From Corallococcus macrosporus DSM 14697 (GTDB lineage Bacteria > Myxococcota > Myxococcia > Myxococcales > Myxococcaceae): a stretch of DNA of 64,000 nucleotides. A program made the position numbers and the translations under genes. Below, one piece after another: positions 23,575 to 61,377 of the stretch. The stretch is taken from contig NZ_CP022203.1 in the NCBI RefSeq assembly GCF_002305895.1, forward strand, positions 4,814,501-4,878,500, read 5' to 3'. The notes under the pieces were generated by a model. It was not told the origin of the DNA and did not search any database. It worked only from the letters and a program-made list of their open reading frames with translations. Positions within the stretch are counted from its first letter, which is position 1. Every line of letters starts with the position of its first letter.

Positions 23575-23602
23575 TTGCCATGTCCGTTTTGGTTGTTACG
23601 TT
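23575..23602 (+). promoter_or_regulatory. Possible sigma-70-type promoter of lonD
   Basis: TTGCCA (23575-23580) and TACGTT (23597-23602) are separated by 16 bases in the AT-richest part of the region between the vWA lipoprotein and lon genes. The start would leave a leader of about 60 bases. The match is partial, so this is tentative. Confidence 0.3.
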
Positions 23603-23666
23603 GGTTCATCCGCCGCAGAAAACCTGGAAATGTTCACTGGTTGTCGAAGAGAGAAGGCTGAACTCC

Positions 23667-26150
<2,484 letters not shown>

Positions 26151-41900: not shown

Positions 41901-42093
41901 GCGCCGTGCGGAGGATGGGATGCGCCAGGACGACGGCCTCCCACGCCTGGGTGAAGGCCCGCACGTCCAGGCGCCGCAGCTCACAGACGAGCTGGTTGAA
42001 GTACAGCCCCTGCCCGGGCTCCGAAATGGCATGGAAGAGCATGCCGCCCTGCAAGGGCGACAGGGGGTACAGGTCCTGGATGTTGTCGCTCAT
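29968..42093 (-). CDS. NRPS, C-PCP-(C-A-PCP)x3-TE, final part of lipopeptide line
   Basis: 4041 residues. A condensation domain of the type that follows epimerases (YPLSPLQGGMLFH; SHLILDGWS) at about 1-440, then directly a carrier (GGDSI, Ser510) with no A domain between. Three full modules follow: C about 590-1040 (HHIVSDGWS), A 1065-1540, PCP Ser1586; C 1645-2080, A 2110-2600, PCP Ser2653; C 2705-3130, A 3165-3660, PCP Ser3711. A thioesterase ends the protein (GWSLGG Ser3841, LMDSF Asp, PGDHYSA His). My pocket readings: DALWLGGTFK (Val-like), DLTKVGHVGK (Asp), DVWHVSLVDK (Ser). Its ATG overlaps the upstream stop by four bases (ATGA), so translation is coupled. It releases the finished chain as acid or ring; which is not visible. 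The first carrier must be loaded in trans or skipped. Confidence 0.96.
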   Translation of the reverse strand: MSDNIQDLYPLSPLQGGMLFHAISEPGQGLYFNQLVCELRRLDVRAFTQAWEAVVLAHPILRTALVWDDVDEPVQVVLREVELPIRVEDWRGLEPDARDSRWESFLEEDRREGIDLSQAPLVRLALMRVGEDAYRFVFSHSHLILDGWSVPLVLRDVFAAYEDALAGRPLRLVPPRPFGDYIGWLAEHDLTASESFWRQTLKGFREPTPLRAGPDGSEGHGRATRSLHLSEERTSALNALARRQGLTVSSLVQGAWALVLGHLSGAGDVVFGTIVSGRPPDLPGVEDMVGLFINTQPVRVRLTRDVSSLGWLRSLQDAQLEARQHEHAPLVKVQRWSDVPAGTPLFESLVVFENYPLDAALSSSAKSLSVHDVRAVEEDHFALTLVSMNGARLPLHLRYDRARFTAAFADAQLERLRFVLERWAEHAEDLLEEVARRSEHTRHPLVLTWADPRQPDVAPEPGPSASPAPPRAFEGPRDAKETTLAAIWAQVFGRERVDIHDNFFELGGDSIVGIQVIARAAQAGLRITAKQLFDQPTVARLAAVASEVPVDGASAPMAAPETSTEPSRQRRAEQAHVEEALLAEGEVGRPLSFAQERLWFLDQLEPGSASYNVTAAVRLVGPLDAQALERGFHALVQRHESLRTTFRSERGVPVQVIAPDGAPSFQPVDLSGLPESIRGDSASRLLKEEVLRPFDLVRGPLLRASLVKLAPEEHLLVMVIHHIVSDGWSIGVLVREWVTLYQAHLHGMASPLPPLPMQYADFAQWQRGWLRGEVLEAQVRYWRQQLEGAPRALELPTDKPRPAAQTFRGRAKRQVWPQALWQRVVALSRAEGATPFMVLVAAYQTVLWRHSGQDDISVGFPIAGRTHAQTEGLIGYFANTLVLRARVRPEATFRELLAQVREATLGAYAHQDVPFEKLVEALLPERDLSRSPLFQVSLTLLNTPQPKMDLGRGLALSPVEAETHTSKFDLSLMVEEAPEGVMVSLNYNSDLFEDETAERLLRHVRVLLEAAVESPGQRLEALPLMGAEERQRLVEVWSGRTVAYPREASLAELFEAQVEETPDAVAVEDRGETLTYAALNRRANQLAHHLRGMGVGPEVRVGVCVERSLAWVVSMLGVVKAGGVYVPLDASYPLERLGWMKSEARVALLVAQEKLADEMASGSELVVSVDTEWDALIARQPESNLRSGASGGNLAYVMFTSGSTGRPKGVGVPQRAVTRLVMGSGVADFGPREVWLQLAPTAFDASTLEVWGALLHGGKLVVYPEGPLELEALARTLEETGITSLWLTAALFEQMQAYQPQALRGVRQVLAGGDVLPVGRVRERVASGAVLINGYGPTEGTTFTSVHRMETVEDVGPGAVPIGGPVANTRVYVLDARLRPVPAGVRGELYVGGDGLAVGYVGRPELTAERFVPSPFGDGERLYRTGDEARWLGNGTLEFLGRRDTQVKVRGFRIELGEVEEALKQQAGVEEAAAVVREEGWGGKRLVAYVVAPGGDGAALKESVKQRLPEYMVPSTVVVLEALPLTPNGKVDRKALQVAELAPQVERQAREPRTPTEHQLLALWREVLGTERVNVEDDFFELGGHSLLATQLVAHVRSAFSVELPLRAIFESPTLEALAARIEGAGSSDAAAGVPPLVPAPRTDAMPVSFAQQRLWFIDQLHPGSAVYNVPIFLRLEGTLSVEALQQALSALVDRHESLRTTFASREGQPVQVIHPAGAFRLAFEDLGAWPTESREAELQARTAREALRPFDLRNGPLLRATVTRLSPASHTLLLVLHHIISDGWSLGVLVREVGALYTAFQEGRPPALPPMPVQYADFSVWQRRWLQGDALEAQLAWWRKQLSGAPPYLELPTDKPRPVTLSHQGAAVPVRLSRSLSDGVTALAQAEGATPFMVLLAAFQLLLSRYAGQEDVVVGSPIAGRRYQETEGLIGFFVNTLVLRAEVRPEETFRDLLAQVRERTLGAYEHQDVPFEKLVEHLQPERSLGRSPLFQVLFVLQNAPVGHLALPSLAVKPQGLVGTEAARFELSLNLGESPEGFSGILQFSTDLFTQATAARVVTHLQRLLESVSSAPAQRLSDVSLLAEAERQQVLGAWDAPGLDVPRAAVHQRFEQAVAASPDAPAVRCEDEVLSFRELDARANQLAHHLRGLGVGADVPVALCLERGAAWVVSMLGVLKAGGAYVPLDSTQPASRLQDLVAEVAAPVVITQARHAQVFGGTAATVVQWDADAATLEQHARHSPACEVHPDQLAYVLFTSGSTGRPKGVAVSHGQLAHYVHAVTERLDLTTCASFALVSTVVADLGNTVLFPALCSGGLLHVLTQERATSPAEAAEYFARFPVDCMKIVPAHLAALMTAAEPGRVLPKKRLVLGGESSSWSLLEQVHALAPACQVFNHYGPTETTVGVVAGPVALPRSAVSGASVPLGRALAHTRLYVLDAALRPVPVGIPGELYVGGAQVTRGYLRRPDLTAERYVPDPYSLTPGARMYRTGDKVRWLEDGRVEFIGRTDFQVKVRGFRVEPGEVAGVLRAHPGLRDAVVVAREDAPGDKRLVAYAVPAEAPGPETAALRAYLQERLPAHMVPSALVVLEALPLTANGKVDWRALPAPEASARDSSPDYEAPASPLEETLASVWAQVLRVERVGRKDDFFGLGGHSLLATQVVARLRAALGVEVPLRALFESPSLRGFAQRVALAARSEAMPGLHAQPRSEKRPLSFAQQRLWFLDRLQPGSTAYNVPLVLNLEGPLDVEVLERAFSELVRRHEVLRTTFPVQGEAPVQVILPAEALRIPVVDLRGQEDTAARRFIRAEVDRPFDLARAPALRTHLLKLAEARHVLVMMLHHIVSDGWSMGILVRELSTLHEAFSHGNASPLPELPVQYADYSQWQRDWLKGEALEAQVRYWRQQLEGAPRALELPTDRPRPAVQTFRGAVRRQVWPQALWQRVESLGRSESATPFMVLLAAYQTVLWRHSGQDDISVGFPIAGRTHAQTEGLIGYFANTLVLRARVKPEATFRELLAQVREVTVGAYAHQDVPFEKLVEELRPERDLSRSPLFQVSLTLQNTPPPDVKRSEGLSLKVVDAEIQTSKFDLSLFVGDAPGGVYAALNYNSDLFDGETAERLLGHMRVLLEAAVASPGQRLEALPLMGAEERQQLVEASSGRAVAAPREATLAELFEAQVEQTPDAVAVTFESEHVTYRELEARANQLAHFLQGMGVGVESLVGVCLERSVDMVVALLGVLKAGAAYVPLDPAYPRERLVGMLEDSGAAVLLTHERHQDVLASAPVRVVLLDAQREEVSRRPATRPAVPRVGPEALAYVIFTSGSTGRPKGAMNAHGAIVNRLRWMQREYGLGGEDVVLQKTPFSFDVSVWEFFWPLSVGARLVVARPGGHQEPAYLTKVLKEERVSTVHFVPSMLRAFLEEPGLEGLSALRRVVCSGEALDAELVKTAYARLPETVEVHNLYGPTEAAVDVTYWPCPRDARLQRVPIGKPVANTALYVLDGQGQPAPVGIPGELHIGGVQVGRGYRQRPELTAERFIPDAFSGVPGARLYRTGDVTRWLPDGTLEYLGRADFQVKLRGFRIELGEVEAALRGHPGVRDAVAVVRQEARGDARLIAYVTGEAEPLTPAALQAHLRKQLPSHMVPSVVVRLDVLPLTPSGKVDRKALPVPEAPTVPSGQYVAPRTPTEEALADIFSQVLGGRRVGVHDGFFELGGHSLLATQVVVRVRAQFGVELPLRALFESPSVAKLTGWLDGAGTDALVRCRVALQPEGSGTPVFLVHAVGGAVGPYRELARRVGASRPVYAFQAAGLDGREPPLARIEALARRYVESMREVQPEGPYVLGGWSLGGVVAFEMARELERQGQRVALLALMDSFAPDEKVSAREAEGGVLLARMAMDLARMAGAESALRPEDFAGLGDEAQLSTVVQHARQAGWLPPEVEVSVLRAWRDVMQANLRALAAYRPGPLRCPVLLLRAKDARRAYAVDPSHGWAPWLPSGLTVEDVPGDHYSALRPPHVETLARRLAEHVDAATGGQETPEGLKRGAG
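32555..33470 (-). repeat. Intragenic repeat, condensation domain, copy 1
   Basis: About 915 bases covering the C-A linker and most of the condensation domain of the last module match 38906-39821 in frame at an offset of 6351 bases, including long runs identical at silent sites (for example the coding of GRTHAQTEGLIGYFANTLVL). Suggests recombination or gene conversion inside the gene. Confidence 0.85.
38906..39821 (-). repeat. Intragenic repeat, condensation domain, copy 2
   Basis: Partner of 32555-33470 in the second condensation domain of the same gene. The two condensation domains are far more alike than either is to the condensation domain between them. Confidence 0.85.
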
Positions 42094-45000
42094 CGCGTCT
42101 TCTTTCCAAACCGCGCGGACAGCTTGTCGAGTTGCGCCTGCTTCACCTTCGCGAGCGGGAAGTCCGAGGGCGAATGGCCCCCCGCGTCCGGCGCCTTCGA
42201 CGCCGCCACCAGGGCCCGCAGGCGCGTGACGAAGTCCTCCGCCACGCGTGCCACCGTCTCACGCCGGTGCACCGCGCCGCTGAAGGTCCACAGCACCTCC
42301 AGCCGCCCGTTGCGAACCGCGCTCATCACGTCGATCAGGTACGGCCGGCGAGCCACCGGCGCCCGCTGCCGCAGGGACTCGCTCTCCGCCGCCAGCGCGA
42401 AGGGCCCGTCCGCGCCCACCACGCCGTCCACCTGTCCCAGGTGGTTGAAGCCCACCTCCGCGGCGGGCAGCGCCGCCAGCGCCGCGTCCTTCGACACGTA
42501 GCGGAGCAGGCCCCACCCCATGCCCTGGGACGGCACCGCGCGCAGCCCTTCCTTCACGGCGCGCAGCGCATCCCCGGGGGTCGGCGCCCCACGCAGGTCC
42601 AGCAGCGCGGGGAACACGCGCGTGAACCAGCCCACCGTGCGCGAGACATCCACGCCCGGCAGCACCTCTTCACGGCCATGGCCCTCCACGTCCACCAGCG
42701 CGACGCCGCCACCGGCCCACGCCGTCAGCGCCTGCCCCAGCGCGGTGAGCAACGGGTCCTGCGCCTGCGTGTGCCAGGCCTTGGGCACGTCCTGCAGCAA
42801 GGCCCGCGTCTCCTCCACGTCCAGGGTGACGCGAACCGAATGCGCCGTGGCCTCGGTGTTGACGCCTTCCGGGAAGTCCACCGGCACCCGGGCCGCCTCC
42901 TGCCAGGGCCGCTCCAGCCACCACTTCCGCTCCGCCGCCAGCTTCTCCGACCGCGCGAGCGTCTCCAGGCCCCGCGCCCAGGCCTGGAACGAGGTCGTCT
43001 TCGGGGGCAGCCGCGCCGCATTGCCCGCGGCGAGCTGTGCGTACACCCCGGCCAGGTCCTCCAGGAGGATGCGCCACGACACCGCGTCCACCACGAGGTG
43101 ATGGACGGTCAGCAGCAACCGCGCGGAGCGCCCACGCCCCAGGGTCAGCAGCGTGGCGTGGAGCAGCCCGCCGTCCAGCCGCAGGGCCTGCTGCGCCTCT
43201 TCGGCGCGGTGCTGCACCACCGCCGCCTGCTCCACCTCGGGCACGGTGGACAGGTCCACCTGCTCGACGAGGACACCAGCCTCCGGCTCCGGGACGACCT
43301 GCCGCCAGCCCGCCTCGCCGCGTGCGAACCGCGCCCGGAGCGCATCATGGTGCGCCAGCAGGTGGGTCAACGCCTGTCCCAGGAGGGCGCCATCCAGGGG
43401 GGTCTTCACCTCCAGCAGCAGGGACATGTTCCAGTGGTGCGGCGCCTCCTGTGCCAGCTCGAAGAACCAGTGCTGGATGGGCGTCAGCGCCACGGGCCCC
43501 ACCACCGCGCCCTGCTCGGCCTGCACGGCGAGCCGGGTCCCCGCGACCGTGGCGAGCCGCGCGACCGTCGGGTTCTGGAAGAGCTGCTTCGGTGACAGCT
43601 CGATGCCCTGCGCGCGCGCGCGGGTGATGATCTGCAAGCCCAGGATGGAGTCGCCGCCCAGCTCGAAGAAGTCGTCGTGGATGCCCACGCGCTCCACGCC
43701 CAGGACTTCCCGCCAGAGCGACACCAGCGTGGCCTCCACCTCCGAACGAGGCGCCACCGGCGCGACCGCCGGCCCCGTTTCGGGCGCGGGCAGCGCGCGG
43801 CGGTCCACCTTGCCGTGTCGCGTGCGTGGCAACGCGTCCAGCGCGACGACCGCCGCGGGGACCATGTACGGCGGCAGCCGCGAACGCACCCAGCCCTTCA
43901 GCGCCGCCGCGTCCGGCGCCGCGCCGCTGTCCGTGGCCACGGGCACCACGTAGGCCACGAGCCGCTTCGGCCCCTTGCCATCGTCTCGCGCCACGACGAC
44001 GGCCTCCCTCACCGAGGGATTCGCCAGCAGCGTGGCCTCGACCTCGCCCGGCTCGATGCGGAAGCCGCGCACCTTCACCTGCTCATCCACGCGGCCCAGG
44101 AACTCCAGCGTGCCGTCCCCGCGCCAGCGGGCCACGTCGCCCGTGCGGTACATGCGCGCACCGGAGCGGCCGTCGAACGGATCCGTCACGAAGCGCTCGG
44201 CCGTGAGTCCCGGCTGGCCCAGGTAGCCCCGCGCCACGCCCGCGCCGCCCAGGTACACCTCACCCGGCGCGCCCTGCGGGACGAGCTTGCGCCGCGCGTC
44301 CAGCAGGTACACGCGCGCCCCGGGCACCGCGCGGCCAATGGGCACGCGGTGCTCCTCCCCCACCCGCACCCGGTGCACCGTGCTCCAGATGGTGGCCTCC
44401 GTGGGGCCGTACTCGTTGAACAGGGCCACCGACGGCAACGCCTCATGGTGCGCACGCGTCAGCTCCACGGGGCACGCCTCACCGCCGACGCTCACCGCCG
44501 TCAGGCTCTTCAGGCCCCCCACAGCCGCCGCGGCGAGGAGCTGCCCGTACAGCGACGGCACGGAGATGAGGTGCGTGACGCGTGACTGGGCGATGCGCTC
44601 CGCGAGCCGCCGCGGGTCCTCACGCTCCTCCGCGTCCGGGTAGCGCAACGCGCCGCCCTCGAACAGGGACCAGAGCAGCCCCGCCAGCGCGGCGTCGAAG
44701 GTGAATGGCGCCAGGGACATCACGACGCCGGGCGCGCCGTACACCTCCGCGCGGGCCCGTGTGGCCGCCACCAGGTGCCGGTGCTCCAGCACCACACCGC
44801 GTGGCCGCCCCGTGGAACCCGACGTGTAGACGATGCACGCCGCGTCCGTTCCCTCCGGACGGACGCGCAGGTCCCCCGTGGCCTCGGGCAGCGAGTCCAG
44901 CGTGATGACCTCCGGCCCCGCTCGCGAAGGAACGCGCGCACGGAGCGACTCGGAGGTGAGCAGCATCCGGGCCTGCGTGTCCGCCAGGATGCTGGAGAGG

Positions 45001-48000
45001 CGCTCCGGCGGATGGTCCACGTCCAGCACCACCACCGCCGCGCCCGCGCGCATCACGCCCAGCAGCCCCGCCACCACCTCCGAGGGCTGCGCCACCGCAA
45101 GCGCGACGACGGCGCCTCGCCCCACGCCCCGTGACACCAGGTGCCCGGCGACGCGCAGGGACAGCGCTTCCAGCTCGCGATACGTGAAGGTCCGGGCACC
45201 GTCCGCCACCGCCACCGCGTCGGGCGTCCGCGCCGCCTGGGCCAGGAACCGCGCGGGCACGGTGTCCGAGGCAGGCAGCTCGGCCACGGGCGCGGGGTTC
45301 CACTCCACCAGCAGCCGGGCGCGCTCCGCGGCGTCCAGGAGGTCGAGCTGGGACAGCCGCGCGTCCGGGCGGCTCGCCGCGGCCTCCAGCACCCGCAGCA
45401 GGGAGCCCGCGAGCCGCGCGATGGTGGCCTCGTCGAAGAGGCGGGTGTTGAAGTCGATGCCGCCGCGCAGGCCCTCGGCCGTCTCCGTGACCTCCAGCGT
45501 GAGGTCCATCTTCGTGGCGCCCGTGTGCACGTAACGGCCACGCATCTGGAGCCCGGCCAGCGACAGCACGGGCGTGGGCGTGTTGTGCAGCACCAGCATC
45601 GTCTGGAAGACCGGGTTGTGGCTGAGGTCGCGCGGGGTGTTCAGCACCTCCAGCACCTTCTCGAACGGCATCTCCTGGTGCGAGAAGGCGGCCAGCGCGG
45701 TGCGCCGCACCCGGCCCAGCACCTGCGTGAACGTGGGGTCTCCGCTCAGGTCCGCGCGCAGGGCAATGGAGTTGATGAAGCAGCCAATCAGCGGCTCCAC
45801 CTCGGGCCGGTTGCGCCCCGCGACGGGCGACCCCACCGCGAAGTCCTCCTGTCCCGTGTACGCGTGCAACAGCACCTGCCACGCGGCCAGCAGCACCATG
45901 AAGGGCGTGGCCCCCTCCTTCCGGCCGGCCGCCACCACGGCATCCATCAGCGACCGGGGCACCGAGAAGGGCAACTGCGCGCCGTCATGCGTCTGCACGG
46001 GCGGACGGGGACGGTCCACCGGGAGCTGGAGCACCGGCACCTCCGCCAGCACCTCGCCCCACCAGTCCTGCTCCGCCTTCAGCGAGGGGCCTCGCATCCA
46101 CTCCAGCTGCCAGAGCGCGTAGTCCGCGTACTGCACGGACAGGGCGGGCAGCGTCGGCGGCTGGCCCGACATCTCGGCCTCGTACAACTGAATCATCTCG
46201 TGCACCATCACCGCCGCGGACCAGCCGTCCGAGATGATGTGGTGCAGCGTGAGCAGCAGGACGTGCTCGGTGCTCCCCACCCGCAGCAACGTCGCGCGGA
46301 GCAGCGGGCCCTGCTCCAGGTCGAAGGTGCGGCGCGCCTCTTCACGCGCCTGGCGGGCGAGCTCCTCCTCACTGGCGTCCTCCGCATCCCGGACGAGGAT
46401 GGAGACCTCCAGCGCTGGCGCGATGAGCTGCACCGCGGCGTCGCCTTCCACGGCGAACGTGGTCCGCAAGGCCTCGTGCCTGCGCACCACGCCGTTCAAC
46501 GCCCGCTCCAGCGCCGCGGCATCGAGCTTGCCGGACAGCGTGAAGGCGACGGCGTTGTTGTAGGCCACGTTGCCTGGCTCCAACCGGTCCAGGTACCAGA
46601 GCCGCTGCTGCGCGAAGGACAGCGGCAGCGGGCGTCCCCGAGGCACGAGCGGAATGGTCCCCGAGCCCTCGGGCCTGGAGGCCGCGCCGCTCCCCATCCG
46701 CGCGGCGGACTTCGGCGGCGCTGGACGCCGCTCCGTGACGGGCGCGGCGGCCAGGAGCTCCACCGAACCGTCCCGCTTGCGCCGCGCACGACGGCCAGTC
46801 CCCAGCCGCCGCGCACCGTCGGACTCCCCGGCGAGCACGCGCATCGACGTGGTCTCCGGCGCGTTCCAGAAGCCACGCGGCACCCCCGCGCCCGTCACCA
46901 CCAGCTCACCCACGACGCCCACCGGCACCGGCTGGCCGCGTCCGTCCACCACGTCCCACCGCGAGGCGTCCACCGGCCCCATGGCCACGGCCCAGGCGCC
47001 GAGCCCCAGGCCGGGCTGACGGTGCGCGACCCGCCACGGCATGGCGCGCGCCAGGGACGCCGCCGCTTCCTCGGACGCGCCTTCGAGCAGGACGTGGCGC
47101 ACGGGGCGCAGCACCTCCGCCGCGTCGGGCAGCGCCAGCATCGACCGCGCCAGCGCCGCGGTGCAGTGCAGGTGGGTGATGCCCGCCTCCCGCACCAGCG
47201 ACAGCAGGGCCTCCGCCGCGCCAGGGCCTTCCCGGAGGGCCGCCGAGGGAATCGCGGGCGAGGGCGCCGGCGAATGACGGCCACGCAAGGCGTCCAGGTG
47301 CCGCAACCCCTCCAGCGTCGCCTCGACCTCCACGCCGAAGTCCACCAGGCAGGCAATCTCATCCACGTCGAGCCGCTGGACCCGCTCCACCATGGGCGCG
47401 CAGCTCTCCGGCGTGCCGATGAGGCCGCCGTCCTGCACGTAGCGCTCCACACCGTGCGCCAGCAGCGCGTCGATGTCCGAGCGCGACAGCGAGCGGGGAT
47501 CCACGTCGAGCCCCAGGCTGGCCAGGAAGCCCGAGGAGATGTCCACCGAGCTGCGGAAGTAGTCGAGCAGCGGCGGCCGCGCCTTCTTCTGGACCTCGGC
47601 CGGGTCATCACCGAGGAACGCGTGCATCATCAGGCTCACGTGCCCGCGCCCCGCGTGGCCATGTTGCCGCCAGGCATCGCGGTACAGCGCCACCTTGCTC
47701 GCCAGGTCATCCAGGTGCTGGCCCATCAGGTTGGTGAGCACGTACGCGCCCAGCTCGCCCGCCAGCCGGAACGTCTCGGGACTGCCGGCGGCGGTGAGCC
47801 AGATGGGCAGCACCTTCTGGACGGGCTTGGGGCGCAGGGAGATGGCGACCTCCTCTCCCGCGCCATTGCGTCGCAGCACCGTTCCACCGCGCCACAGCGT
47901 GCGCACCTCCTCGATGCCGCGGTGGAGGACGTCCTTCCTCCGCGCGTACCGGTCCGGCGCGAACACGAAGTCATTCGCGTGCCAGCCCGACGCGAAGGAC

Positions 48001-51000
48001 ACCCCCACGCGGCCGTCGGACAGGTTGTCCAGCACGGCCCACTCCTCCGCCACGAGGATGGGGTCATGCAGCGGCAGCACCACGCTCCCCGCGCGGATGC
48101 CCAGCCGCTCCGTCACCGTGGCCACGCCCGCGCCCACCACGGCGGGCCGAGGGTACAGACCGCCGAACGAGTGGAAGTGCCGCTCCGGCGTCCACACCGC
48201 GGAGAAGCCATGCGCGTCCGCGAACTTCGCCGCCTCCAGCAGCAGGCGGTACTTCCGGCCGCCCAGCGAATCCTCGTCGTTGGCGAAGAACGACAGGCTG
48301 AAATCCGTCCTCCGCCGCTCAGGCGCCGCGCCCGTCCCCCACGACGTGAAGCGCGCGCGCTCCGCGGGCAGCACCACGCGCAGCCCACGCGTCAGCGCCC
48401 AGAGGAGCTCCAGCCCGGAGCCGGGCGCCTGCGCCTCCTCCGCCGCGAGCCAGATGCCGTCCTTCGACGGAGCCTCCGCGTCCAACCGGGCGAACAGCGC
48501 CGCCACGGTGTGGTGCGTGTGGATGGCGCGGAGCTGCTCGCCCCGGGTCCCCACCAGCGGCTCCAGGCAGACCATGTCTCCGTCGGAGGCCCGCGGCGCC
48601 TCGCGGGCGGGCACGCCCAGGCGCGAATCGGTCCGCGAGAGGACCTCGTCCACCCGGATGACCCGCGCCGCGTCCAGCGGCACGCCCGTGCGGACATTCG
48701 TATGGGTCAGGAGCAGCGGCGATGGCGCCCCCGGAGGAGAGAGGCTGGCCAGCTCGCGGAGCTGCGGCACGGACAGCAGGACGTAGGCCGCCCCCAGGGC
48801 CTGCACCGCCCACTGCGCCACCACCCGCTCCACGGACGGCTCCAGGCAGACGGCGACCAGGACCTCGGGCCCCACCTCGTGGCCGGCCAGCTCCGCCGCC
48901 AGCCGGTCGGCGGACGCTCGCAGCTCGCCCCACGTCACGGCTCGGCCTTCCGGCGCCGTCATCGCCACCGACGCGGCATCAGCGGCGGCGCGCGCCTGAA
49001 GCGCCTCCGCGACAGGCACCGGCGCCGAGGCGGAGCGCCCGGCCTCCACCGCCGCCGGCCCGGGACGGGGCTGCTCGAGCGGCAACGCGAGGAGCGGCGT
49101 CTCGGGGGCCGCCACGGCCGCTTCGAGCAACGTGGTCCAGTGGGCCACCAGGCGCTCCACGGTGTCCCGTTCGAAGCGCTCCTCCGCGTAGTCGATGGTG
49201 CCGGAGAAGCCGTGCGCGTGTTCGCCCAGGCCCACCGTCAGGTCCGACAGGACGCTGCCGAACTCAGGCGGCACGTCATCCAGCTCGGCCAGGCTCATGC
49301 GCACGCCGGGCAGGTCCGCGGTCCGGTCGAAGCGGCTGTGCAGCACGAACAGGGTGTCGAAGACGCGCGAGCGGCCGGTGTCCTTCGTGGGCTCAATCTC
49401 CCGCCCCAGCTCTTCGTACGGGACGTCCGGATGCGCGTAGGCCTCCATGATGACATCCCGGACGCGCATCACCAGCTCGCGGAAGGACGGCGCGCCCGCC
49501 AGGTCCGTCCGCAGCGGGACGGCGTGCGCCACGTAGCCAATCATCGGCTCCAGCTCCGGCCGGCTCCGGTTTCCAATGGGCGTCCCCACCACGATGTCGT
49601 CGCGGCCCGTCCAACGGGACAGCAGCGCCTTCCACGACGCCAGCAGCACCATGAACGGGGTGACGCCTTCACGCTGCGCCAGCGCCTGGACCGCGGCCGA
49701 CAGCGTGGAGGAGAACCCCACCTTCAGCACCTGACCTCGCAGCGCGGGGCCGTCTCCCCGCGCGCGGTCCACCGGCAGCTCCAGCGGACTGGGGAACGCG
49801 GCCAGCCGCTCCCGCCACGCCGAGAGTTGAGACGCGAACGCGCCCTCCTTCAGCGCCTTCCGCTGCCACGCCGCGAAGTCCACGTACTGCACCGGCAGCG
49901 CGGGGAGCCGCGCCGGGTGCCCCTGCTTGAGGGCCGCGTAGTGCTCGCCCAGCTCCTTCGCGAACACCACCAACGACCAGGTGTCACACACCACGTGGTG
50001 GATGGTGACGGCGAGCATGAAGTCGTCCGCCCCGAGCCGCCACAGCCGCGCGCGGGCCACGGGGCCGCGCTCCAGGTCGAACGGCCGCGACACCTCGTCG
50101 TACACGCGCTGCTGCCATGTGGCGCCCGCGAGCGGCTCGGGCGTCAACGGGAACGTCAGCCTTGGCGCGATGCGGAGGACCGGCACGCCGTCCCGCAATG
50201 GATAGGACGTGCGCAGCGCCTCGTGACGCTGCGCCGCCGCCTCCAGGCTCCGCTCCAGGACCGCCACGTCCAGCGCCCCCTGGAAGCGCAGCACCACGTA
50301 CATGTTCAGGGCCGGGTTGCCGGGCAGCGCCTGCTCCAGCGCGCAGACGCGCCCCTGCACCACCGACAGGGGCAAGTCGCCATCACGCGGGATGCGGACC
50401 AGCGGAGGAAGCACCGGCTCCGCGCCATTCGCGCCCGAGGCCCCCAGGCGCTCCTGGATGCGCGCCGAGATTCCCGCCACCGTGGGCGAGTCGAAGACGT
50501 CGCTCAAAGGAAGTGGAACGGGGAACGCCTCGCGCAGCCGCGTCAGGAGCTGCGCGGCCATCAGCGAGTTGCCCCCCAGCTCCAGGAAGTCGTCGTGGAT
50601 GCCGAAGTCCGACCGGCCCAGGCGCTCGCGCCAGATGGCCAGGACCTTGCGCTCCACCTCCGTGCGAGCCCCCGCCAGGTCCGAGGCGGCCTCCGCCGCG
50701 CCTCCGCCGCCGGCGACGACCGGGGACACGGCCACGACTTCGGCGGGGGCCTGGAGGGCCTTCACTGGCGCGGGAGCCGCGACGCGGAACGTCTGCCGCT
50801 GGAAGGGATACGTGGGCAGCGTCAGCTTCCGCCGCGTCTCGTGCGCGTAGACCTGGCGCCAGTCGAGCACCAGTCCCTGCTCCCACAGCGCGCCCAGCGC
50901 CTCCATCAGCGTGGCGTGCATCCCCCGCTTCGAGCCCGCCCGGGGCTGCGACGCCACGGCGCGCCCGGGCCCGCCCCGAGCCAGGGCCGTGAGCGCCTGG

Positions 51001-53438
51001 TCCGGGCCCACCTCCAGGAACACGGTGCAGCCGTCCGCCCTCAGCGCCTCCAGCCCATCACCGAAGCGCACGGGCGCGCGCATCTGCCGGAGCCAGTAAT
51101 CCGGGTCCGTGGCCTCCTCCGCGCGAATCCACGTCCCGGTGACGCTGGACACGTAGGGCCGCTGAGGCGCGGACAGCCGCAGCCCGGCCACCACGCGCCG
51201 CAGCTCCGCCATCAGCGGCTCCACCGCCGCCGAGTGGAACGCGTGCGCCGCAGGCAGCCGCAGCACGCCGATGCCCCGGACGGCCAGGTCGCGCTCCAAC
51301 GCCTCCACGTCCGGCGCGGGCCCGGAGACCACGCACCGGTCCGGCCCGTTCACCGCCGCCAGGGACAGCGCCTCCGTGAGCAGCGGGCGCACCGTCTCTT
51401 CCGCGCAGCCCACCGCCGTCATGCTGCCCGGCGGCATCCGCGCCATCAGCCGGCCGCGCGCCGCCACCAGCGCCAGCGCGTCCTCCAAGGGCAGCACCTC
51501 CGCGAGGCAGGCCGCCACGTACTCACCGAAGCTGTGCCCCAGGTACGCGCGCGGGCGAACGCCCCAGGCCTCCCATTGGCGCGCCAGGGCGTACTCCACG
51601 GCGAAGAGCGCGGGCAGCGCGATGCCCGGGTCGGCCAACGCCTGCCTCGCCGCGTCCTCCGCGCCGGGCGCCGGCGACAACACGCTCCGCACCGAGGCGC
51701 CCAGCGCCGCGCCCAGCCCGTCCAGGCAGGACTCCAGGGCCTCCCGGTAGACGGGCTCCGCGGCGTGCAGCTCGCGGCCCATCCCCACCGACTGCGCCCC
51801 CTGGCCCGGGAACAGGAAGGCCACGCCCTGCTCGCGCGCGGCCACCACGTTCTCCACGGCCTGGGCCTTCCCCGGCGCGCGCAGCTTCTCCCGCAGCGCC
51901 GCGACGTCCGGCGCCACGAAGCTCCGCCGGTGCTCGAAGGCCCGGCGCCCCACGTTGCGCGTGAAGGCCACGTCCGCCAGCGCCACGCCGGCGGGCGCGG
52001 CGTCCAGCCACCCGGCCAGCTCCCGCGCCGCGGCGTCCAGGGCCTCTGGCGAGCGGCCCGACAGCGTCACCACCTGCGTGGGCCGGACGCTGGGCGTGGT
52101 GGGCTCGGGCAGCGGCGCCTCCTCCAGCACCGCGTGCGCGTTCGTCCCGCCAATGCCGAACGAGCTGACGCCCGCGCGCCGGGGCACCGGCCCTCGCGGC
52201 CAGGGCCGCAGCCGATCCACGACGAAGAAGGGGCTGTTGGCGAAGTCGATGGCCGGGTTCGGCCGCTCGAAGTGGAGCGTGGGCGGCAGCTCCTCGTGCG
52301 TCAGCGCCAGCGCTGTCTTGATGAGCCCGGCCAGGCCCGCGGCCGTGTCCAGGTGCCCCACGTTCGTCTTCACCGAACCGAGCGCGCAGTAGCCCTTCTG
52401 CTCCGTCTGCCGCCGGTAAGCGCGGGTGAGCGCGGCGACTTCGATGGGGTCACCCAGCGCGGTGCCCGTGCCGTGCGCCTCCACGTAGCCGATGTCTCCC
52501 GCCTCCAGGCCCGCGAACGCCAGCGCCTCGCCAATGACGTCCGCCTGCCCCTCCACGCTGGGCGCCGTGTAGCCCACCTTCTGGCCACCGTCGTTGTTGA
52601 TGGAGGAGCCCCGGATGACCGCGTACACCCGGTCACCGTCCCGGCGCGCGTCCTCCAGCGGCTTGAGCACCACCACCGCCACGCCGTTGCCCGGCACCGT
52701 CCCCGCCGCGCGCGCGTCGAACGCACGGCAGTGGCCGTCCGGGGACAAGATCATCCCCTCCTGGAACAGGTAGCCCGTGCGCTGCGGCATCGCCAGCCGC
52801 ACCGCGCCCGCCAGCGCCACGTCCGACTGACGCATCACCAGGCTCTGACAGGCCATGTGCACGGCCACGAGCCCCGTGGAGCACGCGGTGTAGAGGGACA
52901 GGCTCTCCCCGCGCAGCCCCAGCTTGAAGGACGCGCGGGTGGCCAGGTTCTCCGCCGAGTTGCTCATCAGCTCGTACAGCGACGCCGGGTCCAGGCTCCC
53001 CTGCCCCACCCGCCCCAGGCCGTGCATGGAGGCGCTCGCGCCGGCGTAGAGGGCAATCTTCCCCTCGAACCGCTCCGGGTCCAGCGCCGCGTCCTCCAGG
53101 GCCGTCCAGGCACACTCCAGGAACACGCGCTGCTGCGGGTCCATCCACTCGGCCTCGCGCGGGGCCATGCCGAAGAAGGCCGCGTCGAAACCGTCGCCGC
53201 CCTCCATTTCCGCGGCCACCGGGACGAAGTCCGGATGGTGGCGCGACGCTTCGGCCATCAGGGGAGACCACTCCAGCGCCTCGGGCGCGAGCCGGACGAT
53301 GGACTCCACGCCCTCCCGCAGGTTGCGCCAGAACGACTGGACGTCCGCGCTGCCTGGAAAGCGGCCCGCCATGCCGATGATGGCGATGTCATTGCCCGTG
53401 CCGCCGGAGTTCTCGCTCAAGGTGTCGTGCTCAGCCAT
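42090..53438 (-). CDS. Hybrid PKS-NRPS, KS-AT-ACP-C-A*[MOX]A*-C-A-PCP-E
   Basis: 3782 residues. KS (about 14-440; Cys186 in TACSTGL, EAHGTGT, NVGHLD); AT (about 545-865; Ser636 in GHSFGEY; HAFH at 732-735 predicts malonyl-CoA); carrier Ser958 (GGNSL); no KR, DH or ER, so the beta-keto group stays. C (about 1010-1460, HHVVCD); a degenerate A domain split by a luciferase-like monooxygenase (1709-2052), with no PCP after it; C (2260-2700); A (2725-3215, pocket DAAISGEIWK, no confident substrate); PCP Ser3264; epimerase to the end (HHLVVDAVSW, SRTVGWFTRVFP), giving a D-residue. The ATG overlaps the upstream stop by eight bases. The carrier-less MOX module must act on the chain held by a neighbouring carrier. 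Confidence 0.96.
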   Translation of the reverse strand: MAEHDTLSENSGGTGNDIAIIGMAGRFPGSADVQSFWRNLREGVESIVRLAPEALEWSPLMAEASRHHPDFVPVAAEMEGGDGFDAAFFGMAPREAEWMDPQQRVFLECAWTALEDAALDPERFEGKIALYAGASASMHGLGRVGQGSLDPASLYELMSNSAENLATRASFKLGLRGESLSLYTACSTGLVAVHMACQSLVMRQSDVALAGAVRLAMPQRTGYLFQEGMILSPDGHCRAFDARAAGTVPGNGVAVVVLKPLEDARRDGDRVYAVIRGSSINNDGGQKVGYTAPSVEGQADVIGEALAFAGLEAGDIGYVEAHGTGTALGDPIEVAALTRAYRRQTEQKGYCALGSVKTNVGHLDTAAGLAGLIKTALALTHEELPPTLHFERPNPAIDFANSPFFVVDRLRPWPRGPVPRRAGVSSFGIGGTNAHAVLEEAPLPEPTTPSVRPTQVVTLSGRSPEALDAAARELAGWLDAAPAGVALADVAFTRNVGRRAFEHRRSFVAPDVAALREKLRAPGKAQAVENVVAAREQGVAFLFPGQGAQSVGMGRELHAAEPVYREALESCLDGLGAALGASVRSVLSPAPGAEDAARQALADPGIALPALFAVEYALARQWEAWGVRPRAYLGHSFGEYVAACLAEVLPLEDALALVAARGRLMARMPPGSMTAVGCAEETVRPLLTEALSLAAVNGPDRCVVSGPAPDVEALERDLAVRGIGVLRLPAAHAFHSAAVEPLMAELRRVVAGLRLSAPQRPYVSSVTGTWIRAEEATDPDYWLRQMRAPVRFGDGLEALRADGCTVFLEVGPDQALTALARGGPGRAVASQPRAGSKRGMHATLMEALGALWEQGLVLDWRQVYAHETRRKLTLPTYPFQRQTFRVAAPAPVKALQAPAEVVAVSPVVAGGGGAAEAASDLAGARTEVERKVLAIWRERLGRSDFGIHDDFLELGGNSLMAAQLLTRLREAFPVPLPLSDVFDSPTVAGISARIQERLGASGANGAEPVLPPLVRIPRDGDLPLSVVQGRVCALEQALPGNPALNMYVVLRFQGALDVAVLERSLEAAAQRHEALRTSYPLRDGVPVLRIAPRLTFPLTPEPLAGATWQQRVYDEVSRPFDLERGPVARARLWRLGADDFMLAVTIHHVVCDTWSLVVFAKELGEHYAALKQGHPARLPALPVQYVDFAAWQRKALKEGAFASQLSAWRERLAAFPSPLELPVDRARGDGPALRGQVLKVGFSSTLSAAVQALAQREGVTPFMVLLASWKALLSRWTGRDDIVVGTPIGNRSRPELEPMIGYVAHAVPLRTDLAGAPSFRELVMRVRDVIMEAYAHPDVPYEELGREIEPTKDTGRSRVFDTLFVLHSRFDRTADLPGVRMSLAELDDVPPEFGSVLSDLTVGLGEHAHGFSGTIDYAEERFERDTVERLVAHWTTLLEAAVAAPETPLLALPLEQPRPGPAAVEAGRSASAPVPVAEALQARAAADAASVAMTAPEGRAVTWGELRASADRLAAELAGHEVGPEVLVAVCLEPSVERVVAQWAVQALGAAYVLLSVPQLRELASLSPPGAPSPLLLTHTNVRTGVPLDAARVIRVDEVLSRTDSRLGVPAREAPRASDGDMVCLEPLVGTRGEQLRAIHTHHTVAALFARLDAEAPSKDGIWLAAEEAQAPGSGLELLWALTRGLRVVLPAERARFTSWGTGAAPERRRTDFSLSFFANDEDSLGGRKYRLLLEAAKFADAHGFSAVWTPERHFHSFGGLYPRPAVVGAGVATVTERLGIRAGSVVLPLHDPILVAEEWAVLDNLSDGRVGVSFASGWHANDFVFAPDRYARRKDVLHRGIEEVRTLWRGGTVLRRNGAGEEVAISLRPKPVQKVLPIWLTAAGSPETFRLAGELGAYVLTNLMGQHLDDLASKVALYRDAWRQHGHAGRGHVSLMMHAFLGDDPAEVQKKARPPLLDYFRSSVDISSGFLASLGLDVDPRSLSRSDIDALLAHGVERYVQDGGLIGTPESCAPMVERVQRLDVDEIACLVDFGVEVEATLEGLRHLDALRGRHSPAPSPAIPSAALREGPGAAEALLSLVREAGITHLHCTAALARSMLALPDAAEVLRPVRHVLLEGASEEAAASLARAMPWRVAHRQPGLGLGAWAVAMGPVDASRWDVVDGRGQPVPVGVVGELVVTGAGVPRGFWNAPETTSMRVLAGESDGARRLGTGRRARRKRDGSVELLAAAPVTERRPAPPKSAARMGSGAASRPEGSGTIPLVPRGRPLPLSFAQQRLWYLDRLEPGNVAYNNAVAFTLSGKLDAAALERALNGVVRRHEALRTTFAVEGDAAVQLIAPALEVSILVRDAEDASEEELARQAREEARRTFDLEQGPLLRATLLRVGSTEHVLLLTLHHIISDGWSAAVMVHEMIQLYEAEMSGQPPTLPALSVQYADYALWQLEWMRGPSLKAEQDWWGEVLAEVPVLQLPVDRPRPPVQTHDGAQLPFSVPRSLMDAVVAAGRKEGATPFMVLLAAWQVLLHAYTGQEDFAVGSPVAGRNRPEVEPLIGCFINSIALRADLSGDPTFTQVLGRVRRTALAAFSHQEMPFEKVLEVLNTPRDLSHNPVFQTMLVLHNTPTPVLSLAGLQMRGRYVHTGATKMDLTLEVTETAEGLRGGIDFNTRLFDEATIARLAGSLLRVLEAAASRPDARLSQLDLLDAAERARLLVEWNPAPVAELPASDTVPARFLAQAARTPDAVAVADGARTFTYRELEALSLRVAGHLVSRGVGRGAVVALAVAQPSEVVAGLLGVMRAGAAVVVLDVDHPPERLSSILADTQARMLLTSESLRARVPSRAGPEVITLDSLPEATGDLRVRPEGTDAACIVYTSGSTGRPRGVVLEHRHLVAATRARAEVYGAPGVVMSLAPFTFDAALAGLLWSLFEGGALRYPDAEEREDPRRLAERIAQSRVTHLISVPSLYGQLLAAAAVGGLKSLTAVSVGGEACPVELTRAHHEALPSVALFNEYGPTEATIWSTVHRVRVGEEHRVPIGRAVPGARVYLLDARRKLVPQGAPGEVYLGGAGVARGYLGQPGLTAERFVTDPFDGRSGARMYRTGDVARWRGDGTLEFLGRVDEQVKVRGFRIEPGEVEATLLANPSVREAVVVARDDGKGPKRLVAYVVPVATDSGAAPDAAALKGWVRSRLPPYMVPAAVVALDALPRTRHGKVDRRALPAPETGPAVAPVAPRSEVEATLVSLWREVLGVERVGIHDDFFELGGDSILGLQIITRARAQGIELSPKQLFQNPTVARLATVAGTRLAVQAEQGAVVGPVALTPIQHWFFELAQEAPHHWNMSLLLEVKTPLDGALLGQALTHLLAHHDALRARFARGEAGWRQVVPEPEAGVLVEQVDLSTVPEVEQAAVVQHRAEEAQQALRLDGGLLHATLLTLGRGRSARLLLTVHHLVVDAVSWRILLEDLAGVYAQLAAGNAARLPPKTTSFQAWARGLETLARSEKLAAERKWWLERPWQEAARVPVDFPEGVNTEATAHSVRVTLDVEETRALLQDVPKAWHTQAQDPLLTALGQALTAWAGGGVALVDVEGHGREEVLPGVDVSRTVGWFTRVFPALLDLRGAPTPGDALRAVKEGLRAVPSQGMGWGLLRYVSKDAALAALPAAEVGFNHLGQVDGVVGADGPFALAAESESLRQRAPVARRPYLIDVMSAVRNGRLEVLWTFSGAVHRRETVARVAEDFVTRLRALVAASKAPDAGGHSPSDFPLAKVKQAQLDKLSARFGKKTR
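47283..48314 (-). other. Embedded luciferase-like monooxygenase (MOX) domain
   Basis: Residues 1709-2052 of the hybrid synthase. The block from RRTDFSLSFFANDEDS to VEATLEGLRHLDALRG is a full FMN-dependent luciferase-like monooxygenase of the kind named natural-product biosynthesis LLM (TIGR04020): AVWTPERHFHSFGGLYP, LGIRAGSVVLPLHDPI, LSDGRVGVSFASGWH, LPIWLTAAGSPETF. It is inserted in an A domain between the A4 and A5 regions, as in the MOX-A domains of myxothiazol and melithiazol synthases. The flanking A halves have lost the A3 (SGSTGxPKG), A5 (YGPTE), A7 (YRTGD), A8 and A10 motifs, so they cannot adenylate. Confidence 0.92.
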
Positions 53439-56400
53439 GGCCTCGGGGGTTCCTTCCTCCGCGCCGCTGGAGGGCCTGCCTGCGGGCCTCCGCGCGCGAC
53501 TGGTGCTTCACGTCGGTGGTGTCGTCCGGCCGCGCCTCGGCTTGCAGCCGCCGGGCGAGCGCGTGGACCGTGGGGTGTTCGAAGAAGTGGGTGATGGGGA
53601 CTTCGCGCCCCAGCGACTCGCTCAGCCGCGAGCACGCACGCACCACGGACAGGGAGCTGCCGCCCAGGTCGTCTAAGAAGTGGGCATGGACGTCCACGGA
53701 GGGGAGCCCCAACGCCTCCGCCCACGCGCGGGCCGCCTGCTCCTCCAGCGGCGTGCGGGGCTTGCCTTCCGCCGACACGGGGAGCGCGGGCTTCGGGAGC
53801 GCGCGCGCATCCACCTTGCCCGAGGCCAACAGGGGCAACGCCTCCAACGTCACGAGGTCCACGGGGACCAGGTGCTCCGGCAGCCGTTCCCGCAGCCGCG
53901 CGCGCACCTCTCCCGGCGGAAGGACGTCTCCCGGCGGCGGCACGACGTACGCCACCAGCCGGGGCTCCGCGATGGAAGAAGGACGCCACACGGTGACGTG
54001 GGCCTGGCGCATGCCGCTCAACTCGCGCAGCGCCGCCTCCACCTCGCCGGGCTCCACGCGGAAGCCCCGCAGCTTCAACTGCGTGTCCGCGCGCCCCAGG
54101 AAGTCCAGTTGGCCATCCTCCCGCCAGCGCACGACGTCTCCAGTCCGGTAGAGCCGGGCTCCGGGCTCGTCGCCATGCGGGTCCGGAATGAAGCGCTCGG
54201 CGGTGAGGTCCGGCCGGCCCAGGTAGCCGCGGGCCAGGGACGGCCCCCCCACGTAGAGCTCCCCCGCCACGCCCACGGGAACGGGCTGGAGCGCCGCATC
54301 GAGCACGTACGCATCGATGTGCGGCAAGGCGTTGCCGATGGCGGCCGGTCCCTCCGTATCGGGCGTGAGACGTGCCCACGTCGCGCACACCGTCACCTCG
54401 GTGGGACCGTACGCGTTGAGGAACGTGCGGCCCGCGGCGAAGCGGGCCACGAGGCTCGCGGGACACGGCTCCGCGCCGGCCATGAACAGGGTCAGGTCCG
54501 GCAACGGCCCCTCTGGAAGCAGCAGGGCCACGGACGGCGGCAGCATCGCGGCGGTGATGCGTTGCTCCACCAGCAACCGGTACAGCGCGTCCCCCATGGG
54601 AGGCGCTCCCGGCGCCACGTGCAGCGCGCTGCCCGAGGACAGGGCCGCCACGTAGTCCGACACCGACATGTCGAAGGCGGGCGAGGCGAACAGGAACACG
54701 CGTGAGTCCGGCCCGAGCGGAAGGCCGCTGGCGAAGGACTCGCACAGGTGCGCGACGCCCCGGTGCGTCACCACCACGCCCTTGGGCCGGCCCGTGCTTC
54801 CGGACGTGTAACAGACATACGCCGCGCCGTCGGGTGACGCCTCGCCACCTCCGGGCGGTGGCGCCTCCACCTCCACGGCGCCGGCTCCCGAGATTTGCGC
54901 TTCCCAGCGCAGCACCGTCACGTCGTCGAGCGGCTCCAGCCGTTGGGCATACCGCTCATGGGCCAGGAGCACGCGAGCGCCCGCGTCCGCCAACGTCCAC
55001 GTCACCCGGCCCGGAGGATACGCGGGGTCCAGCGGCACCGCGGTGCCCCCCGCCTTGAGGATGGCGAGGAACGCCGCCACCTGCTCGGGGCCGCCGCGCT
55101 CCAGCAGCGTGCCGACCCGGACCTCGGGGCCCACGCCCTCGCGCCGCAGCAGCGTGGCCAGCCGGTCGACCCACGCCGCCAGCTCCCGGTAGGTCCACCG
55201 CGCCGTGCCCGCGACGAGCGCGGGTGCGTCCGGCGTCTTCGCCGCCCACGACTCCAGCCGCTGAACCAGGCCACCAACCTCCGGCACGCGGGGGCCGCGG
55301 CGCCCCCTGCCCCGCGCGAGCAAGGCGCGTCGCTCCTCCGCCTCCAGCCAGGGCAGGTCCACCAGGGGCAGGTCCGGCCGCGCGGCGGCGGCGTCCAGCA
55401 AGGCGCCCAGGTGTCGCACCATGCGAGCGGCGGCATGGGTGTCGAAGAGGTCGGCGCAATACTCCAGCCTCGCCACGAAGGCGCCTTCCACCTCCGCCAT
55501 CACCAGCGAGAGGTCGAAGGCCGCGCCAGGGTGGCGCAAGGGGACGGACTCGACCGACAGCTCGCCCAGGCGGGCCCGCGCACCCGGCGCGCCGACGGCG
55601 AACGCGCCCAGGGGTTCGCTTCCAGGACGGCCCGACTGCAGGGCGAACATCGTCTGGAAGACGGGCGCGCGCGAAGGGTCCCTGCGCGGCTGAAGGTGCT
55701 CCACGAGCCGCGGGAAGGGCAGCTCCTGGTGGTCCAGCGCGTCCAGCACGGTGCCCCGGACCTGCGTCACCAGGCCGGAGAAGGTCATCGCGCGCGGCAG
55801 GTGGGCGCGCAAGGCGACCGGGTTGACGAAGTAGCCCAACTGACGCGACAGGTCCGCGCGAGGGCGCCCGGCGGTGGGCGTGCCCACCATCAGGTCGTCC
55901 TGCCCCGAGTAGCGGCGCAGGAACGTCAGGTATCCGGCCAGCAGCACCATGAACGGCGTGGCGCCGTGCGCGCGCGCCAGGGCCTTCAAGCGCGCGGACG
56001 TCTCCGGCGACACGGCGAAGGACACGGCGTCGCCACGGAACGACTGGAGCCGGGGTCTCGGCCCCGAGGTGGGCAGCTCCAGCACCGGCAGCTCACCGCC
56101 CAGCCGCTCGCGCCACCACGCCTGGAGTGCCTCGGCGCGCGGCCCCGAACACCGCCGCGCGAGCCCCTGAAGCAGCGTGGACGCCAACGGCGGCGCCGGA
56201 GGGAGCGGCGGCGGTACGCCCCGCAGCTCCGCGCCGTAGAGCGTCCCCAGCTCTCCGGCCAGCACCTCCAGCGACCAGAAGTCGGTGATCAGGTGGTGCA
56301 TGGCGAGCAGCAGGACGTCCCCACCCGGCGCCCCCGTGTACAGCCGGACCCGCACCAACGGCCCGTGCTCCAGGTCGAAGGGACGATGCGCCTCTTCGTG

Positions 56401-60108: not shown

Positions 60109-61377
60109 TCATGGCCCGGCCACGCACCGGGCCCGCGCTTCAGCGGTGAGGCGCTGCCGCAGCCACGCCGCCGCGGACCGGAGATCCGCTTCGAAGTGGA
60201 TGCGCGCCTCCGCCCGCGCCCGGCCCACGGGGAGCCGCAGCACCGCTTCCGGGGCATACGTGGCCATCCAGCCCTCCGCCCACCGCGTGTCCAGGAGCTG
60301 CCCCCGGCTCAGGTGCATGCGGAACCCCACCCCCAGGAAGGCCTGGGCCGCCACCGGCCCCAGCGCGACAATCATCCGCGGCCGGACCTCCGCCACCGCG
60401 GCGTCCAGCCCATGGCGGCAGAGGCCCGCCTCCCCCCACGCCAGCGGAGGCGGCCCCACGCGCCGCCAGCGGCATCCGTTTCCGCAGGGCCGCACCACCT
60501 GGAGGCTGGAGCGCGCGAGCCCCGCGCGCCCCAACACGACGTCCAGGAGCGCGCCCGCGGGCCCCGAGAAGGACGCCGCCCCGCCGTCCCCGGCGGAGGC
60601 CCCCACCAGCAGCAGGGGCGCGCGCGCCACGGCCTCCGGGGGACGCGGGTGGGACGCGGCCCGCGCCACCCGGGCGCGGGCCCACTCCGGCAGCGCCCCG
60701 CCTTCCTCGAAGGTGAGCCGCGCCCCATCCCAGTGCGCCCAGGTGTCCGGCGTGAACAGGCTCCAGGTGAAGGCCGGGAAGCGGCGCACGAGGAACGGCG
60801 CCACCTCCCGGACGATGCGGTGTTCGGGCCGGTACCACGCGACATGATGTTCACGCCCGTCCCGCCACACCCGGTGGAAGCGCACGGCCGCCATCAGGGC
60901 CTGCAGGTCCCGCCGCACCGCCTGCTCCAGCCAGCGCAGCCGGCCCACGTCCGCGTCGTCGTGGCGCTCCAGCAGCGCCGGCTCCCCATGCGTCAGCCGC
61001 CACAACACGCGGTACAGCAGCGGCCAGCGCGCCGGCTCCCGGTGGCACACCACCTGCCGCGCCAGGCCCACGAAGTCTTGAGGCACCCGGGACACGGCGC
61101 GGCCCCAGGCCTCCCAGCCCGCGGCCTCCCGCCCCAGCTCCCGACGGCCTCGCGTCTCCTCGAAGCGCACCCGCTCCGGAGGTTCCCCCCGCGCCAGCAG
61201 CCCCCGCGCCACCACCCGGAAGGACGCCAGGTCCGGCGCCACGAAGACCCGCGTCACCCCGCCGTCCCGCCGCCCATCCTTCCGCGCGACCAGGCTTTGC
61301 CGCCACCGGGCACCCACGACAGGCCTCGACTCCTGATGGACGTCCATCCGCGCATTCCTACCTGCCCGGTCTGACAT
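60109..61377 (-). CDS. DUF4130 fused to degenerate uracil-DNA glycosylase domain
   Basis: A 422-residue protein. Residues about 35-235 match DUF4130 (ALLERHDDADVGRLRWLEQAV, GREHHVAWYRPEHRIV, TPDTWAHWDG), found in presumed DNA-metabolism proteins. Residues about 250-400 match the uracil-DNA glycosylase superfamily as in UdgX (SFSGPAGALLD, VALGPVAAQAFLG). The usual HPS motif is changed to APE (Ala375 in ATYAPEAVLR), the first motif reads GASAGDGG instead of GEAPGxxE, and the KRRIH loop is absent. The domain is therefore probably inactive as a glycosylase. AGGGGG directly upstream supports the ATG at 61377. The usual radical-SAM partner gene is not present here. Confidence 0.82.
   Translation of the reverse strand: MSDRAGRNARMDVHQESRPVVGARWRQSLVARKDGRRDGGVTRVFVAPDLASFRVVARGLLARGEPPERVRFEETRGRRELGREAAGWEAWGRAVSRVPQDFVGLARQVVCHREPARWPLLYRVLWRLTHGEPALLERHDDADVGRLRWLEQAVRRDLQALMAAVRFHRVWRDGREHHVAWYRPEHRIVREVAPFLVRRFPAFTWSLFTPDTWAHWDGARLTFEEGGALPEWARARVARAASHPRPPEAVARAPLLLVGASAGDGGAASFSGPAGALLDVVLGRAGLARSSLQVVRPCGNGCRWRRVGPPPLAWGEAGLCRHGLDAAVAEVRPRMIVALGPVAAQAFLGVGFRMHLSRGQLLDTRWAEGWMATYAPEAVLRLPVGRARAEARIHFEADLRSAAAWLRQRLTAEARARCVAGP

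Follow-up and report, generated by a model that had tools for sequence, protein, structure and literature searches.

Myxoprincomide contains a 2-oxo-beta-leucine residue, and the cyclotheonellazoles, a group of sponge peptides, carry an alpha-keto amide. Cyclotheonellazoles are cited as potent protease inhibitors, and scleritodermin A, another alpha-ketoamide peptide, has been described as a tubulin inhibitor (PMC7345825). Keramamides carry an alpha-keto-beta-amino acid (PMC12858407, PMC7345825), and an 'unusual C1 extension' has been reported for the calyxamide and keramamide clusters, with an Ox domain listed in the calyxamide model (PMC12858407). In PuwE, which acts in puwainaphycin synthesis, a monooxygenase (MOX) domain lies between a PKS carrier and the next C domain and has been assigned an alpha-oxidation (PMC4219810). 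The X-domains of glycopeptide synthetases are non-condensing domains of the C fold that recruit an oxygenase (PMC8949500).

The window, as we call the whole 64,000-nucleotide stretch analysed here, comes from a complete genome of 8.97 Mb, placed in Myxococcus on the basis of named relatives, that encodes eight full TIGR04020 domains. Three overlapping minus-strand genes in it, P0001, P0002 and P0003, form one assembly line (29968-58788) of the order FAAL-ACP-C-A-PCP / KS-AT-ACP-C-A*[MOX]A*-C-A-PCP-E / NRPS-TE, as judged from domain calls made with Pfam and NCBIfam profiles and with HMMs built in this analysis (Table 1). P0001 opens with FAAL-ACP, which bears out the lipid start proposed in an earlier note on this DNA, and would load the fatty acid as well as the first amino acid. 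No gene for an FMN reductase turned up in the cluster among the neighbouring genes looked at. Upstream of the operon, 60109-61377 on the minus strand encodes an ordinary neighbour, a DUF4130 and uracil-DNA-glycosylase protein. A Lon protease gene (22158-26150, plus strand; 95-99% identity) is close to the cluster in Myxococcus; a role for the adjacent Lon in self-resistance was rejected, since in G034 and G006 Lon is elsewhere and the cluster is still there.

Table 1. Features of the three-gene assembly line in the window
Feature	Position	Strand	Evidence
NRPS P0001, FAAL-ACP-C-A-PCP	53431..58788	-	profile searches
P0001 FAAL	57064-58731	-	profile search
P0001 C	55318-56685	-	profile search
P0001 A1, code DMSMMGAVCK	53800-55272	-	profile search and code extraction
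P0001 PCP	53554-53772	-	profile search
Hybrid PKS/NRPS P0002, KS-AT-ACP-C(DT)-A*[MOX]A*-C-A-PCP-E	42090..53438	-	profile searches
P0002 KS, TACST active site, residues 16-425	52164..53393	-	profile and motif
P0002 AT, motifs GHSFGE / HAFHS, residues 539-822	50973..51824	-	profile and motif
P0002 ACP, residues 928-995	50454..50657	-	profile
P0002 C(DT), condensation-fold, residues 1019-1459	49062..50384	-	profile, motif, structure model
HHVVCDT motif of C(DT), H1147-T1153	49980..50000	-	alignment
A* N-part, A-core fold, no A3 motif	48300..49022	-	profile, motifs, structure model
MOX, putative FMN-dependent luciferase-like monooxygenase, residues 1714-2049	47292..48299	-	TIGR04020
D1792 of LPLHD in MOX	48063..48065	-	alignment
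A* C-part, ends at about position 393 of 492	46737..47243	-	profile
P0002 C2, intact HHIISDG	45309..46637	-	profile and motif
P0002 A2, code DAAISGEIWK	43794..45269	-	profile and code
P0002 PCP and epimerase-type C-fold domain	42186..43763	-	profile
NRPS P0003, C-PCP-C-A-PCP-C-A-PCP-C-A-PCP-TE	29968..42093	-	profiles

To compare the line with its relatives, we took as window-family orthologues those with a MOX of at least 74% identity in a frame of about 3800 aa (fused with the next gene in G004). The A1 codes of these relatives include DASTIAAVCK and DVWTVAAVCK, which occur in several of them and which we take to be aromatic-type codes; the window's own A1 code has diverged. The A2 code is nearly constant across the family and the A1 code is variable, which suggests a fixed second residue and a tuned first one. 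The three A domains of P0003 have the codes DALWLGGTFK, DLTKVGHVGK and DVWHVSLVDK. The first module of P0003 (40471-42093) is a C-PCP without an A domain, as it is in L038 and G060. Most other relatives, M. xanthus AM003 (L040) among them, show C-A-PCP at this position; the A domain may have been lost recently, the position now being skipped or loaded in trans.

P0002 opens with a PKS module whose AT bears the motifs GHSFGE and HAFHS, which are malonyl-type. Profile searches of P0002 gave no match to KR, DH, ER, MT or aminotransferase at E<=1e-5, and the gap of 106 residues between AT and ACP is too short for a KR. Malonate extension by a module without KR, as claimed in the earlier note, is thus upheld by the AT motifs, the TACST of the KS, the missing KR match and the short gap, and the MOX does follow directly on the PKS module, in KS-AT-ACP-C-A*[MOX]A*. 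The claimed order A-PCP/KS-AT-ACP/C-MOX was likewise confirmed by the profiles, but its A-PCP belongs to P0001 and so lies outside the range 46700-53438 given for it, which is the first 60% of P0002 and ends just past the A*/MOX block.

An inserted block, C(DT)-A*[MOX]A*, separates the PKS carrier from the normal C domain that follows. The MOX exceeds the curated TIGR04020 cut-off (514 bits versus 244), and this membership makes flavin-dependent oxidation its putative activity. It splits an adenylation domain, A*, that has no A3 motif, usable code or A10 lysine and whose C-terminal subdomain is gone (see Table 1 for the stop position), and HMM domain calls on P0002 place no PCP between A* and the next C domain. 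The C domain preceding the MOX has HHVVCDT in place of HHxxxDG, the HH, D and T being invariant in a 41-row alignment of the class defined below as class II. Since A* is dead and a carrier protein is absent, the block adds no residue and is not an elongating module.

For comparison, we gathered relatives from 96 Myxococcaceae genomes, 195 Myxococcota genomes and named public genomes, and compared over 100 related MOX domains, each of which was given a class label by architecture alone, ahead of the tree. The final set holds 56 class I, 54 class II, 5 class III and 7 unassigned distinct rows, counts that are inflated by near-copies; the first tree separated three distinct paralogous families, and the set later gained more distinct assembly lines. 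In class I, C-A[MOX]A-PCP, the A domain is complete and its code, where it was read, is always the glycine code DILQxGMxWK. Such glycine A[MOX] modules (myxothiazol/melithiazol, MOx-bearing corallorazine-like) share with the window the insertion of TIGR04020 at about position 217 of A, but have a live and full-length glycine A domain, a PCP and a C domain with HHxxxDG or HHxxxDA. Class III, to which a Sulfidibacter protein belongs, is the PuwE-like KS-AT-ACP-aminotransferase-MOX-C. PuwE resembles the window in where its MOX lies, after the carrier of a KR-less PKS module and ahead of the next C domain of the NRPS, and differs in its aminotransferase before the MOX instead of C(DT)-A*, its place in the class III clade and its LPLHH instead of LPLHD.

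Class II has the layout of the window: a KR-less KS-AT-ACP, a C domain with HHxxxDT, an A*[MOX]A* ending at about 390 of 492, no PCP, and a C domain. KS-AT-ACP-C-A* preceded the MOX in all class II loci with visible upstream sequence (51/51), and the 24 loci showing sequence further upstream have A-PCP before the KS. HHxxxDT was present in the C domain before the MOX in 51/51 class II cases, while in other C-fold domains the last motif residue was G in 188, A in 40 and T in 5. Two of these five are class II C domains of split genes in the window's own genome, two have an epimerase-type HHLVVD pattern and one follows a MOX in G080. The LPLHD aspartate is found in 98% of class II MOX domains, whereas a second histidine (LPLHH) prevails there in classes I and III. 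Recurrence of the same layout in 54 distinct loci is far beyond chance.

Elsewhere on G000:C1, the class II genes at ~4.578 Mb (L073/L074) and ~4.316 Mb (L069) each consist of two overlapping frames, split near the A*/MOX region through assembly errors or real splits. At 8.860-8.876 Mb of the same contig (L071, L072) lies a cluster with an MtaG-like C-A[MOX]-PCP-TE protein, which also holds a second, deeply branching MOX, linked to an ACP through an unassigned stretch of 739 residues.

The tree agreed with the architectures. All 54 class II MOX domains of the final set lie on one side of a single branch, and a careful tree of the first 31 class II members gave the clade a support of 100/99; the glycine/amide type (class I) and the PuwE type (class III) fall outside it, glycine-type sequences being the nearest outside relatives. 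The window MOX lies in the class II clade and combines the KR-less KS-AT-ACP upstream, HHxxxDT, cut A*, lack of PCP and LPLHD; it has none of the A3 motif, code, A10 lysine or PCP of a glycine A[MOX] module, and P0002 has no Aminotran_3, a domain that was found in a class III protein. In a limited search outside the Myxococcaceae, none of the four relatives checked from other Myxococcota families was class II, all being class I.

One class II family is encoded by a giant single gene of 13,300-15,473 unbroken codons, found in 14/14 Myxococcus genomes examined, although some copies are interrupted where a contig ends or the frame breaks. In G065 (C11, 14284 codons) it reads FAAL-ACP-C-A(insert)-PCP ... 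A-PCP-KS-AT-ACP-C(DT)-A*[MOX]A*-C-A-PCP ... TE, and its MOX is about 60% identical to that of the window. The giant gene is separated from the window locus by 11.4 degrees in G000 and by 11.2 in G077, and mxan3779 from mxan4000 by 12 degrees (PMC3778016). Furthermore, class II loci at 4.30, 4.58 and 4.86 Mb match the order of M. xanthus clusters 9 (MXAN_3602-3658), 10 (myxoprincomide, MXAN_3763-3797) and 12 (MXAN_3986-4020, a 'lipopeptide' listed without product) (PMC4902038). From its single-gene layout, genus-wide conservation and map position, and not from a locus tag, we infer that the giant gene is the myxoprincomide synthetase MXAN_3779 (PMC11619377, PMC3778016, PMC4902038); position and layout likewise suggest that the window locus corresponds to cluster 12, the orphan 'lipopeptide' cluster MXAN_3986-4020.

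This presumed myxoprincomide synthetase shares with the window A-PCP-KS-AT-ACP-C(DT)-A*[MOX]A*-C-A-PCP, the FAAL start and the MOX clade, and differs in its single giant gene, its ten live A domains and its amino acid codes. Kinship between the two MOX domains had been suspected in the earlier note, and they do fall in the same class II clade (100/99, 54/54); the window MOX does not group with amide-forming enzymes only, the glycine/amide type lying outside, and the phylogeny thus favours the link to myxoprincomide. The A domain before the KS has in G065 the code DGMHHVGIIK, which is not the standard valine code, so a logic of valine plus malonate minus one carbon is not confirmed. We also considered whether the AT-ACP linker of the giant gene conceals a KR and rejected this, the 332-residue stretch in G060 being low-complexity repeats.

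Following the domain order, the first amino acid, fatty-acylated on P0001, would be condensed with malonate by KS-AT-ACP, and because KR is absent the domain content predicts that the chain stays a beta-keto thioester. C(DT)-A*[MOX]A* would form a platform holding the ACP-bound beta-keto chain before the FMN-dependent MOX, which, from the domain order and the chemistry of related MOX domains, would oxidise the carbon between the two carbonyls. The expected substrate is the beta-keto intermediate on the ACP, since a KR-less PKS module comes before every class II block and offers the MOX its only available chain; oxidation of this carrier-bound beta-keto chain by the MOX is likely. By analogy to the presumed myxoprincomide synthetase, the chain would be oxidised further and lose the carboxyl carbon of malonate, leaving an alpha-keto acyl unit. 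C2 would take the oxidised chain and join it to the following amino acid, so that an alpha-keto amide would result close to the lipid end. An alpha-keto amide with a net one-carbon extension is our best single guess for the product, with a probability of roughly 0.5; the carbon loss is suggested by the 2-oxo-beta-leucine of myxoprincomide and by the C1 extension reported for the keramamide and calyxamide clusters. These Entotheonella clusters share with our proposal a PKS-like C1 extension and, in the calyxamide model, an Ox domain, a likeness drawn from their published descriptions (PMC12858407, PMC7345825).

The main rival is that the MOX acts as an alpha-carbon hydroxylase only, so that both malonate carbons are kept and the product is an alpha-hydroxy-beta-keto amide or its enediol tautomer, a beta-hydroxy-alpha-keto amide. 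Hydroxylation is the minimal chemistry for the MOX family: PuwE, the closest solved relative, is assigned to the formation of a 3-amino-2-hydroxy acyl unit (PMC4219810), and class I MOX hydroxylates the C-alpha of glycine (PMC11342130). In the literature accessible to us we found no demonstration of carbon loss by any class II enzyme, the published reactions of the family being single alpha-hydroxylations, and this precedent predicts the alpha-hydroxy-beta-keto amide equally well. However, class II forms a separate clade with its own LPLHD, where the others mostly have LPLHH, and a different upstream layout, and myxoprincomide, the presumed characterised class II product, has an alpha-keto unit. 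We therefore regard hydroxylation alone as a serious but rather unlikely outcome.

An improbable alternative is that the MOX is vestigial or acts elsewhere, leaving a plain beta-keto amide, as might befit a module whose host A domain is dead, whose PCP is lost and which no longer adds a residue. Pairwise dN/dS of the window gene against six orthologues points the other way. Among the large domains, constraint is strongest on MOX and KS (mostly 0.09-0.31). The MOX, at 0.09-0.29, is one of the most strongly conserved domains, and the alignment shows that it keeps the invariant residues of its family; it is also found in 54 loci, each time behind a PKS module without KR. C(DT) and A* have values of 0.20-0.51, a range like that of the active C2, A2 and E, so they are held about as strongly as active domains and the cassette is not decaying.

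An AlphaFold model of C(DT)-A*[MOX]A* (mean pLDDT 79.5, pTM 0.59), in which the placement of the three domains relative to each other is too unreliable for use, was compared with known structures by Foldseek/VIA, whose matches speak to fold only and not to function. A*, interrupted by the MOX, aligned to complete A-core structures of the TycA type (Z about 34). The MOX matched the PuwE OX 6KET (Z 44; 48% identity in the Foldseek alignment), and C(DT) matched both C and X domains (Z about 35; 4tx2, Z 35.8). As modelled, A* is a folded scaffold and not a decaying remnant. C(DT) is similar to X-domains in fold, and a likeness in function would be an analogy. X-domains recruit P450s in trans; C(DT) retains HH and D, and its FMN enzyme is part of the same polypeptide.

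Oxygen insertion of the Baeyer-Villiger type, or chain cleavage, would give an ester or a shortened product, and a flavin peroxide could in general attack a ketone. We know of no Baeyer-Villiger or chain-cleaving member of the MOX family, and the downstream C2, A2, PCP and TE are intact and conserved, indicating that the chain goes on; we give this reading only a slight chance. A reaction as in the myxothiazol glycine modules, with C-alpha hydroxylation, N-C cleavage and a terminal amide, shares the A-domain insertion point and has the glycine type as nearest relatives outside class II, but is contradicted by a block that has no glycine code, functional A or PCP and is not at the chain end, and is very hard to credit.

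The earlier note's suggestion of an alpha-keto product like those of some protease inhibitors stays a reasonable and plausible hypothesis. Protease inhibition would be an analogy, and no specific protease target is supported; speculatively, a chymotrypsin-like target would fit an aromatic residue beside the keto group.

HHxxxDT, the cut and PCP-less A domain and LPLHD are sequence signatures that separate the cassette from the amide-forming and alpha-hydroxylating MOX types, and they allow cluster-by-cluster prediction of myxobacterial peptides with a possible alpha-keto or related electrophilic residue. Window-family orthologues are present in 33 Myxococcaceae genomes, among them 24/27 of the genus Myxococcus, so the product is probably important to these predators. 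We tentatively suggest for C(DT)-A*[MOX]A* the role of a portable 'ketide oxidase', a cassette derived from a glycine A[MOX] module by loss of adenylation and carrier, that together with a KR-less PKS module would carry out a one-carbon homologation to an alpha-keto-beta-amino acid in dozens of unstudied myxobacterial peptides. If true, these would include the near-universal orphan lipopeptide of Myxococcus encoded in the window.
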